This document shows, piece by piece, positions 13,964 to 29,344 of a DNA stretch of 41,740 bases; position 1 is the stretch's first letter; every line of letters starts with the position of its first letter. Source of the stretch: a virus. The notes below the pieces were generated by a model, which did not search any database, had not been told where the DNA came from, and saw nothing but the letters and a program-made list of their open reading frames with translations. The DNA lies in IMG/VR virus record IMGVR_UViG_3300020421_000052, positions 1-41,740 of that record, one strand, 5' to 3'. The position numbers were made by a program, and so were the translations under genes.

Positions 13964-14104
13964 TTATTTACTAAGTTGTTGCAGTTTTTCTGCAAAGTTT
14001 TCCCAATCTTTGGTCAACTTGTGTCTGTGTACTGGACACTCTATTTTTTGGATTACTTTCCAAGAGAAGTCTGCCCAAGCATCAGCTATAAATCTTTGTT
14101 CCAT
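13964..14104 (-). CDS. Hypothetical 46-residue protein
   Basis: Frame from ATG 14102-14104 to TAA 13964-13966 with AAAGGA seven bases upstream. The product is helical and Trp-rich (MEQRFIADAWADFSWKVIQK) with a CPVH motif in the middle and ends in LQQLSK. It directly follows the first copy of the 69-bp repeat. Unknown function. Confidence 0.6.
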   Translation of the reverse strand: MEQRFIADAWADFSWKVIQKIECPVHRHKLTKDWENFAEKLQQLSK

Positions 14105-14110
14105 AGCATT

Positions 14111-14179
14111 ATCCTTTCTGTTTGTGGTTAATATTACATAAATAAATACTACTTCATAATATTCAGTAGTATTTTTTAT
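14111..14179 (-). repeat. 69-bp leader repeat, copy 1
   Basis: Matches 14311-14379 at all but three positions that I can count, exactly 200 bases away. It contains the ribosome site of the 46-residue gene and a hairpin with arms AATACTAC (14146-14153) and GTAGTATT (14166-14173) followed on the plus strand by a T-run. It lies wholly between two small genes. Confidence 0.8.
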
Positions 14180-14304
14180 TACTCAAGACCCTTGCAATCA
14201 TCTTCCTCGCAATAGAATTTTTTCAATTCTATTTTCATTTCTTCAGGTAAACTGTCCCAATAACAGTTTACTATTGTGTCAAGTTTATTAAATTTGTCAT
14301 TCAT
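14179..14304 (-). CDS. Hypothetical 41-residue protein
   Basis: Frame from ATG 14302-14304 to TAA 14179-14181 with AAAGGACTAAACT before the ATG. The product is mixed helical (FNKLDTIVNCYWDSLPEEM) with two further cysteines near an acidic end (CEEDDCKGLE). It is bracketed by the two copies of the 69-bp repeat, so gene and leader look like a duplicated unit in which the coding parts have diverged or been exchanged. Confidence 0.6.
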   Translation of the reverse strand: MNDKFNKLDTIVNCYWDSLPEEMKIELKKFYCEEDDCKGLE

Positions 14305-14310
14305 AGTTTA

Positions 14311-14379
14311 GTCCTTTCAGTTTGTGGTTAATATTACATAAATAAATACTACTTCATTATATTCAGTAGTATTTTTTAT
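14311..14379 (-). repeat. 69-bp leader repeat, copy 2
   Basis: Second copy of the repeat at 14111-14179, with the same hairpin arms and ribosome site, here serving the 41-residue gene. On the minus strand this copy carries TATAAT (TATTAT in copy 1), but I see no matching -35 box. Confidence 0.8.
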
Positions 14380-15339: not shown

Positions 15340-15362
15340 AGTATTTTCCTTTCTTTGTTGCT

Positions 15363-15482
15363 AATCAAATATAATTATTTGATTAAAGGGTAGCTAGAAA
15401 CTTGGAGAGTACCTTTACTCTAGCTACCTTTTAATTAAATAAAAGGTGGTGCAGTTTAATGCTTTCACATAAGGTCTGCACC
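15363..15482 (-). ncRNA. Cluster of four hairpins, possible structured RNA element
   Basis: Within 120 bases of non-coding sequence there are four stems: AATCAAATA/TATTTGATT (15363-15384), GGTAGCTAGA/TCTAGCTACC (15389-15428), ACCTTTTA/TAAAAGGT (15426-15447) and GGTGCAG/CTGCACC (15448-15482). The second and third share three bases, so they compete at their edge. No open frame of note crosses them. They could be an intercistronic RNA, a processing or attenuation element, or a regulatory leader for the downstream small gene. Called ncRNA only provisionally. Confidence 0.4.
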
Positions 15483-17172: not shown

Positions 17173-17201
17173 AGTATGCTTTTTGTAGTTTAACTTCTCA
17201 A
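17173..17201 (-). promoter_or_regulatory. Leftward early promoter candidate
   Basis: On the minus strand TTGAGA (17196-17201) and CATACT (17173-17178) are 17 bases apart. The -35 box differs from consensus at one position and the -10 box at two. The predicted start near 17165 gives a leader of about 60 bases to the first leftward gene, containing an AAGATT/AATCTT dyad at 17136-17155. Confidence 0.4.
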
Positions 17202-17217: not shown

Positions 17218-17297
17218 TTGAAGTATATTTAATTATTATTTATATACTACAAAGTAGTAGTATATAAATAATAATTAATATTTATTAAATACTTCAA
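17218..17297. repeat. Long hairpin 1 of the control region
   Basis: Perfect 22-bp stem, 17229-17250 with 17257-17278, around the loop AAAGTA (17251-17256). Beyond a small internal loop a further 9-bp stem TTGAAGTAT/ATACTTCAA (17218-17226 with 17289-17297) closes the structure. The apex CTACAAAGTAGTAG is shared with hairpin 2. Confidence 0.85.
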
Positions 17298-17450
17298 AAA
17301 ATTCTTTTGAAATTTTGATGATAAATTTCTCTGGCATTTTTAAAAAATGGGCAAGTAAATTTGAATCTCAAAAGAATCTTTGAAGTAAGAATCAAAAGAT
17401 AAAAGAATCAAGAAAAACTGGGAAAATTTTTGGGAAGGAAATCAGGGAAG

Positions 17451-17574
17451 TCCCAGTCTTTCTAGGTTAAAATATCTTTATAGACTCTATAATTTCAATA
17501 GTCTACAAAGTAGTAGACTATTTAAATTATTCTTTAGAGTCTATAAAGATATTTTAACCAAGAAAGACTAGGGA
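17451..17574. repeat. Long hairpin 2 of the control region (about 54 bp paired)
   Basis: From the outside in: TCCC/GGGA, AGTCTTTCT/AGAAAGACT (17455-17463 with 17561-17569), one mismatch, a perfect 25-bp stem (17465-17489 with 17535-17559), TAATTT/AAATTA, and a 10-bp stem AATAGTCTAC/GTAGACTATT (17497-17506 with 17513-17522) around AAAGTA. The whole inverted repeat covers 124 bases and directly precedes the GTCA-N6-TGAC array. Confidence 0.88.
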
Positions 17575-17587
17575 GTCTAGGGCAAAT

Positions 17588-17773
17588 GTCAAGTTATTGA
17601 CACTGTTGGTTTTTTGACAGTTGAAAACGTCAGAATATTGACAGACAGAGTCAATCTTTTGACGATTAGCTAGAAATCAAGGTAGAAAAGGGATTCAGAG
17701 CCGTCAATTTCTTGACAAGGTGTCAAAGTCTTGACAGTGTGTCAGATTTTTGACGAGGTGTCAGATTTATGAC
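17588..17773. repeat. Iteron array GTCA-N6-TGAC, seven perfect dyads plus one half site
   Basis: Fourteen-base dyads start at 17588, 17629, 17650, 17703, 17722, 17741 and 17760; a degenerate copy that keeps only the right arm starts at 17605. Consensus GTCARNNTNTTGAC, with A instead of T at the eleventh base in the last copy. The last four are spaced exactly 19 bases apart with spacers AAGGT, AGTGT and GAGGT. Regular spacing and conserved outer arms point to cooperative binding of a dimeric protein, as at replication origins or multi-operator control regions. Confidence 0.85.
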
Positions 17774-17802
17774 AGTCTAGGGAAATCAAGGGAGGGGGAC
17801 AC

Positions 17803-17846
17803 AAAAAAAGAGGGGGTGTGTGTATAATATAAAAAAGGGTACCCCC
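17803..17846 (-). terminator. Terminator-like hairpin facing left
   Basis: On the minus strand GGGGGT (from 17841-17846) can pair with ACCCCC (from 17812-17817) around a loop of about 23 bases and is followed by TC and seven T residues (17803-17809). It would stop leftward transcripts coming from beyond the virion arm before they enter the iteron region. The large loop makes this tentative. Confidence 0.35.
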
Positions 17847-18085
17847 AAAAAATTAGGGAGAAAATGGAGTTGTAGTTGTTGATAATGATTATTAATGGGG
17901 GAGTCCTCAAATAGATTTACACAACACTGCACGAGGGATGCAATAGAGTCTATATAGTTATGTGTTATGTGATTTGTGTTTCCTACAGATATACCTATTA
18001 ACCCTGGAAACTTAGTCATAAGTATATCATACTTTTTTAAAACTCACAATAGTATTTTTTTCTTTTTTATAAATACATTATAGTG

Positions 18086-18091
18086 TATAAT
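18086..18091 (+). promoter_or_regulatory. -10 box of the small terminase gene, possibly leaderless
   Basis: A perfect TATAAT ends seven bases before the ATG at 18098-18100. With usual spacing, transcription would start at or next to the start codon, giving a leaderless messenger, in line with the absence of any Shine-Dalgarno there. No good -35 box is present at 17 bases (only a T-run), so activation or a different sigma factor may be needed. Confidence 0.4.
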
Positions 18092-18097
18092 ACAATA

Positions 18098-18796
18098 ATG
18101 AAAAAGCAACCTAAACATTTATTGTATGCTCATTTAGATGATTCAGGTCTCAGAGACTTAATTAAAGAAACGGCAGCCACCAGAAAAAAGGTAAACGCAG
18201 GTAGAGACTTAATTGAGATGAGACGTGAGTACATGAGAAGAGTTGAAGAGAGGAGACTTAATATGACTAAAAGAAAAGCTAATAAATTACCTAAAGAACA
18301 AAAGGTAAAGATGTTAGAAAAAGCACAACAAAAGTACCATAACTTTGCAAAGAATACATTACCTAGTGGATTATCTCCTATGCAAGAAAAGTTTTGTTTA
18401 GAATATACAGCAACAGGTGATACTTTAACTGCATGGAGAGCAGCAGGTTATAAAGAAGGTAAGACTGAAGCTGATACTCGTGCAGAAAGTAAAAGATTAT
18501 TAAAGAATGATAAGATTGAAGAAAGATGTAATCAAATAAGACTAGACGCAATGAAAGATGTAGGTCTTAATATTAATGAAGTTGTAAAAAAGTTTATGAA
18601 AGTTTATGACAGAGGTATGGAAGAAAATGATTTAACTAACTCTAATAGAGCAATGGAGTTTATAGGTAAACATCTAGGTATGTTAATTGAACGTAAAGAA
18701 ATTAAACAAGACATTACAACTAAATCACCTGAAGAATTAGAACGTGAGATAAAGCATTATGAAAATGTTGTCAAGCTTGAACAAGGTAATAAATAA
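18098..18796 (+). CDS. terS: Terminase small subunit
   Basis: A 232-residue protein from ATG 18098 (a GTG five codons earlier overlaps the -10 box and is unlikely). After a basic, helical N-terminal extension of about 90 residues, the segment LSPMQEKFCLEYTATGDTLT, AWRAAGY and AESKRLLKND matches the helix-turn-helix DNA-binding part of the Terminase_2 small-subunit family. The later helices (VVKKFMKVYDRGME, RAMEFIGKHLGM) would form the ring oligomer. It recognises phage DNA and feeds it to the large subunit. First gene of the virion arm, ahead of a small membrane protein and the large terminase. The long basic extension is larger than in minimal small terminases. Confidence 0.85.
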   Translation: MKKQPKHLLYAHLDDSGLRDLIKETAATRKKVNAGRDLIEMRREYMRRVEERRLNMTKRKANKLPKEQKVKMLEKAQQKYHNFAKNTLPSGLSPMQEKFCLEYTATGDTLTAWRAAGYKEGKTEADTRAESKRLLKNDKIEERCNQIRLDAMKDVGLNINEVVKKFMKVYDRGMEENDLTNSNRAMEFIGKHLGMLIERKEIKQDITTKSPEELEREIKHYENVVKLEQGNK

Positions 18797-29283: not shown

Positions 29284-29298
29284 TCCAAATTATATAAG

Positions 29299-29320
29299 GG
29301 GTCTCATTAGAGACCCTTTA
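29299..29320 (+). terminator. Intrinsic terminator after the major capsid gene
   Basis: GGGTCTC (29299-29305), loop ATTA, GAGACCC (29310-29316), then TTTATACTTTATA. The 7-bp GC-containing stem with a T-rich end lies 15 bases after the capsid stop and would lower expression of the genes behind it relative to the capsid. Confidence 0.75.
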
Positions 29321-29344
29321 TACTTTATATAGAAGGAATTATAA

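Follow-up and report, generated by a model that had tools for sequence, protein, structure and literature searches.

Why should a phage carry, at the point from which its genes diverge, two long hairpins with unrelated stems and the same tip? The question is raised by a window of 41,740 nucleotides, the whole stretch of DNA analysed here, which is a 41.7-kb fragment with 33% GC from an uncultured marine tailed phage. Its large terminase shares about 40% identity with the corresponding proteins of Pelagibacter phages HTVC023P and HTVC027P, and the phage group is called HTVC023P-like here. The leftward genes encode a primase/helicase, DNA polymerase, exonuclease and annealing protein, the rightward set begins with terS and terL, and both hairpins (H1 and H2) sit within the noncoding region of about 1 kb between the leftward early genes and terS/terL. 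In a near-complete relative of 57.2 kb (G001) all genes diverge from the hairpin locus and converge near 41.7 kb, and this region is the single divergence point of the HTVC023P-like group. A nucleotide search of GenBank phages with the region returned only weak, unrelated matches; the relatives' records are metagenomic fragments, so absences among them count weakly. The elements of the locus are the following.

17218-17297, no strand assigned: H1, with a perfect 22-bp core (17229-17250/17257-17278), loop AAAGTA (17251-17256) and apex CTACAAAGTAGTAG (17247-17260).
About 17451-17573, no strand assigned: H2, with outer arms 17452-17489/17535-17572, inner arms 17489-17506/17513-17530 and apex 17503-17516.
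17299-17423, plus strand: middle segment M, purine-rich and fast evolving, between the hairpins.
17432-17444, plus strand: motif GGGAAGGAAATCA, invariant among carriers of this cassette; unrelated cassettes have it as GGGARGGAAAYCA, immediately 5' of H2.
17395-17423 with 17451-17479 (the 5' base of H2), plus strand: alternative pairing, 76% complementary, with the motif in its loop.
17587-17780, no strand assigned: array of about 8 GTCA-N6-TTGAC-like dyads, some 19 bp apart.
17786-18098, no strand assigned: noncoding block that about 30 relatives conserve upstream of terS.
18021-18049, minus strand: predicted sigma70-like leftward promoter, TTGTGA-N17-TATACT, of which relatives keep consensus-compatible variants.
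17832-18014, minus strand: candidate small RNA or leader, predicted at about 180 nt and ending at GGGGGTACCCTTTTTT.
17173-17201, minus strand: putative promoter driving the leftward early genes, TTGAGA-N17-CATACT, located to the left of H1.

The earlier note had described two long hairpins with an identical 14-nt apex, and the structures, their coordinates and the shared apex are all real and far beyond chance. When the window was shuffled 200 times with dinucleotides preserved, no perfect stem exceeded 14 bp, and 1000 shuffles of the local region gave at most 11 bp, compared with 22 bp in the real sequence. H1 and H2 are the only inverted repeats of at least 22 nt within 400 nt in the window. 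Beyond the core of H1, weaker pairing extends to 17218-17297. The 25-bp perfect core reported for H2 also exists, within outer arms of 38 nt that are 95% complementary, but it does not touch the apex that was said to cap it: below the apex come a perfect stretch of 10 pairs, a single mismatch, roughly 6 more pairs, a bulge on the 3' side and only then the 25-bp run. T-runs are indeed lacking after H1 and H2 on either strand, and neither hairpin has the arrangement of an intrinsic terminator, a stem followed at once by a T-run. A protelomerase site was not adopted either, since telomere resolution requires a palindrome symmetric through its centre and the centre AAAGTA is not self-complementary. 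Rfam covariance models gave nothing above the gathering score in the window, and weak miRNA-like matches at H2, far below cut-off, were dismissed as reflecting the long hairpin only.

The stems have been preserved as pairs among the four sequences that carry this cassette (the window itself, W, with L078, L137 and L206; W-type). Of the 74 stem pairs, nine carry changes in both partners and none in a single partner, compared with 0-1 double changes when partners were slid by 1-3 columns, a count that rests on few events given the four sequences. Two of the double changes lie in H1 and seven in H2; L137 altered two H1 pairs together with one loop base, and the upper part of H2 shows paired substitutions and a paired indel. 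The base of H2, including its fixed mismatch, is nearly invariant in the four relatives, and the H1 core, the H2 base and motif GGGAAGGAAATCA evolve more slowly than segment M. The covariation analysis that had been proposed thus yielded compensatory changes, and the paired structure seems to be maintained while its letters change. Outside the hairpins, a paired change was also observed at 17176-17199, from TTGAG...CTCAA in W to TTCAG...CTGAA in L078, L137, L206 and L213.

A search for further copies of the apex, also proposed in the earlier note, found the 14-mer CTACAAAGTAGTAG exactly twice in the 41.7 kb, at the two tips. Many unrelated viral contigs contain the 14-mer by itself, with no long stem around it, and therefore the element is the apex plus its stem rather than the 14-mer. 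A virus-wide 14-mer motif was accordingly set aside: among the other carriers fetched, only L078 had a long stem, and L203 and L204, two of the five contigs that match a 17-mer of H2, do so by chance and have no copy of the cassette. The loop reads AAAGTA in W, L078 and L206, and ATAGTA in both hairpins of L126 and in the one hairpin seen of L125. In L137 the two apices are unequal (ATAGTA in H1, CAAAGTAA in H2), which is an exception to the matching within genomes.

These comparisons divide the earlier proposal that a shared loop on unrelated stems implies selection on the loop. Matched apices do recur at the locus in relatives whose stems are unrelated; a fixed signal, however, is contradicted by the passage of AAAGTA into ATAGTA or CAAAGTAA in near relatives and by a different apex in others. 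The apex thus drifts between phages, which the note had taken as evidence against its reading, while matching within a genome mostly persists, L137 excepted.

Where the locus holds an unrelated cassette (relatives of the L156, L126 and L129 types), there is again a hairpin pair whose tips are alike in each genome and different between lineages. Their common layout is a hairpin, a segment with GGGARGGAAAYCA, a second hairpin, a dyad array and the conserved terS flank, and it recurs with unrelated sequence in the L156-type, in L126 and, with terminator-like hairpins, in the L129/L131-type. GGGARGGAAAYCA is located before H2 in most cassette types, and the type of dyad switches with the cassette. 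The L156-type shares with the window the left flank up to 17208 and the terS-side flank beginning at 17786, with a replaced cassette in between; an alternative pairing option similar to that of W is visible in L156, and the two locus hairpins of this type and a third in the early region have a common long apex around CCCTAAAGGG. In the L129-type, terminator-like early hairpins occupy the positions of H1 and H2. No long hairpins were found at the locus in L141 and L142-L151, despite the conserved terS flank, and therefore not every member of the group needs the pair. A short leftward ORF of about 15-20 codons (MSEGTTQVR-like), which may be conserved, overlaps a GC-richer hairpin of the middle segment at L129:3317-3410 and in similar records.

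The terS flank has features of its own. In about 30 relatives the conserved leftward promoter is followed by a nearly invariant stretch ending at GGGGGTACCCTTTTTT, which points to an early leader or small RNA, about 180 nt long and so far undescribed (17832-18014). This candidate has no Rfam match above cut-off, and its covariation is weak, almost absent, because the sequence is nearly invariant. At 18083-18110 a TATAAT (about 18089) directly precedes the terS ATG (about 18099), and therefore translation of terS may start on a leaderless mRNA. About 12 contigs of relatives, including G002 of 56.7 kb, end inside 17410-17910 of the window, which may be an assembly-breaking stretch or lie near a physical end. 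Several contigs ending there raised the possibility that the module holds fixed packaging ends, which was not adopted; assembly breakage is as likely, because these ends are scattered across about 500 bp and G001 is broken at another place.

Within a genome, loops of equal length, early-region hairpins (family A, below) included, share 88% identity when compared directly and 27% when one of them is inverted; the direct orientation is favoured by 92 of the 96 loop pairs and the inverted one by none, and matched copies have one orientation. In W-type sequences the unpaired bases are 70-74% purine on the plus strand and 31-34% on the minus strand, and GC skew becomes positive from H1 rightward, with its cumulative minimum at the locus. 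A function on the plus strand is favoured because of the single orientation, the purine-rich unpaired bases and the skew, even though rightward genes have similar skew, so the purine richness also fits this general trend.

Our preferred reading, held tentatively and at less than even probability, is that H1 and H2 form a matched pair bracketing a structured plus-strand control element within a divergent control or origin module, most likely as a rightward RNA. In such a scheme the pair would bracket a strand-specific structured element in the only divergent promoter region of the phage, and rightward transcription would cross it so that the plus strand works as RNA. The long stems would display the common tip twice, flanking the purine-rich segment with GGGAAGGAAATCA, a phage or host factor could read tip and stem, and early/late expression or RNA processing might be set as the outcome. 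In its favour are the paired stem changes, the recurrence of the layout with unrelated sequence, the apex matching within genomes, the single orientation, the purine-rich unpaired bases of the plus strand, the slow evolution of the H1 core, H2 base and motif relative to M, and the divergence of all G001 genes from the locus. Several observations count against this RNA reading. Sequence prediction found no convincing rightward promoter near H1, and segment M alone folds no better than shuffles on the plus strand of W and L137; the hairpin-less relatives and the unequal apices of L137 also weigh against it. So does the lack of wobble: no G-T or A-C pairs occur in the hairpin families among about 780 Watson-Crick pairs, a count made on all rows but that of AAAGTA, where unrelated contigs are mixed in. 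The absence of wobble does not decide between RNA and DNA, because the early hairpins, which are probably transcribed, also have none. Protein reading of a hairpin loop is known from the virion-RNA-polymerase promoters of phage N4, which differ from H1 and H2 in their short stems and 3-nt loops. A promoter of this type was considered and not adopted; a search for phage RNA polymerase (PF00940) gave no match, but the control genomes gave none either.

The same tips could instead be displayed by DNA. Hairpins or cruciforms at a replication origin, extruded or formed in single-stranded DNA, with the apex read by an initiator, primase or nuclease, are a possible though somewhat unlikely explanation. 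The dyad array adjoins H2, the cumulative GC-skew minimum falls at the sole divergence point, and the stems are strictly Watson-Crick on either strand, all of which would suit an origin, but the skew switch cannot be told apart from an effect of gene direction, the analysis identified no initiator protein, and some relatives keep the conserved flank and dyads without long hairpins. The priming sites ssiA and ssiB of plasmid RSF1010 are likewise two hairpins beside an iteron-like array; they lie on opposite strands, whereas H1 and H2 have the same orientation.

Another account, rather improbable in our judgement, is that template switching, together with short conversion from copy to copy, generated the palindromes and their matched tips, which would then have little or no function. 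Template switching has been shown to make and maintain perfect hairpins (PMC8794818), and the perfect stems and multi-base paired changes seen here resemble such products: changes are only two-sided, with a paired indel and block changes, wobble pairs are absent, and the repeat families are lineage-restricted. Template switching can also invert loops, however, and none of the 96 loop pairs is inverted; moreover, apex and base evolve slowly, the H1 core and H2 base more slowly than M, and positions and orientation are fixed. Lineage-specific families of palindromic extragenic repeats are known as REP elements, associated with TnpA-REP/RAYT (PMC3733652, PMC8266576), and the repeats here share both properties, but GTAG lies at the apex instead of at one end, and copies are few and in one orientation. 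The Y1 (HUH) transposase of REP/RAYT or IS200/IS605 systems (PF01797) was absent from five possibly incomplete records, with control genomes positive. An integron attC cassette array was not adopted, since tyrosine recombinase (PF00589) had no match in five possibly incomplete records and all controls were positive.

Further hairpin families are found in the early region of the same phages, and of one of them, family A, the window holds two copies.

14144-14174, no strand assigned: family A copy 1, AAATACTACT/TCATAATATTC/AGTAGTATTT, inside a 91-bp direct repeat.
14344-14374, no strand assigned: family A copy 2, with loop TCATTATATTC.

The 91-bp direct repeat (88%) spans 14089-14379, with a hairpin in each copy and a 41-codon leftward ORF enclosed, and G001 has a single hairpin and no such ORF between the neighbouring homologues, which suggests that a hairpin-bounded gene was gained or lost. 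Family A hairpins lie between early genes, often 2-5 nt past stop codons and with A/U tracts, and in relatives the early hairpins follow stop codons and precede a conserved GAAAGGA-ATG start. The loop form TC[A/G]...TTC recurs on several different stems, with TC[A/G] kept and TTC mostly so, and the GA...GA loop ends of the sense strand could form tandem G-A pairs. A host origin of the family was rejected: a search across 84,980 bacterial and archaeal species, each represented by one genome, gave no match. A short hairpin at 15362-15385 (TAATCAAATA/TAAT/TATTTGATTA) is also present in L124, L137 and L156 among the relatives. Among described phage features, family A comes closest to the extended start-associated sequences (ESAS) of Cluster K mycobacteriophages (PMC3203893). 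These inverted repeats of unknown function are dispersed upstream of a subset of genes in the genome half without structural genes; their consensus is specific to each genome, and the spacer mostly measures 4-13 bp. Family A does lie just upstream of GAAAGGA-ATG; H1 and H2, in contrast, are far longer, are paired in the divergent region and, at 123 bp and 383 bp from the nearest leftward start, are not beside a ribosome-binding site.

About as improbable as upkeep by template switching, we consider, is that H1 and H2 are transcription insulators (bidirectional terminators or RNase III-type hairpins parting the two units, the apex being merely inherited from a duplicated hairpin), for which the placement of family A after stop codons and its presence at the H1/H2 positions in L122, L127, L129, L131 and L158 would speak, but a T-tract in a position to terminate is missing from H1 and H2 of W and from L126's hairpin 2, and the group's recognisable terminators are GC-rich with short stems (e.g., the one predicted at W 29297-29325).

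The most far-reaching reading is that these phages have a new class of control element, in which genome-specific matched tips bracket an exchangeable module at the early/late divergence and the tip co-evolves with a cognate phage factor, each lineage having its own recognition type; we regard this as unlikely. If the tips are read by a cognate factor, the locus would represent a lineage-specific recognition module at the early/late switch or the replication origin, and such a module could explain block exchange between near relatives. Besides, the pattern of paired changes is a natural case in which selection can be tested against template switching as the force that keeps hairpins perfect.
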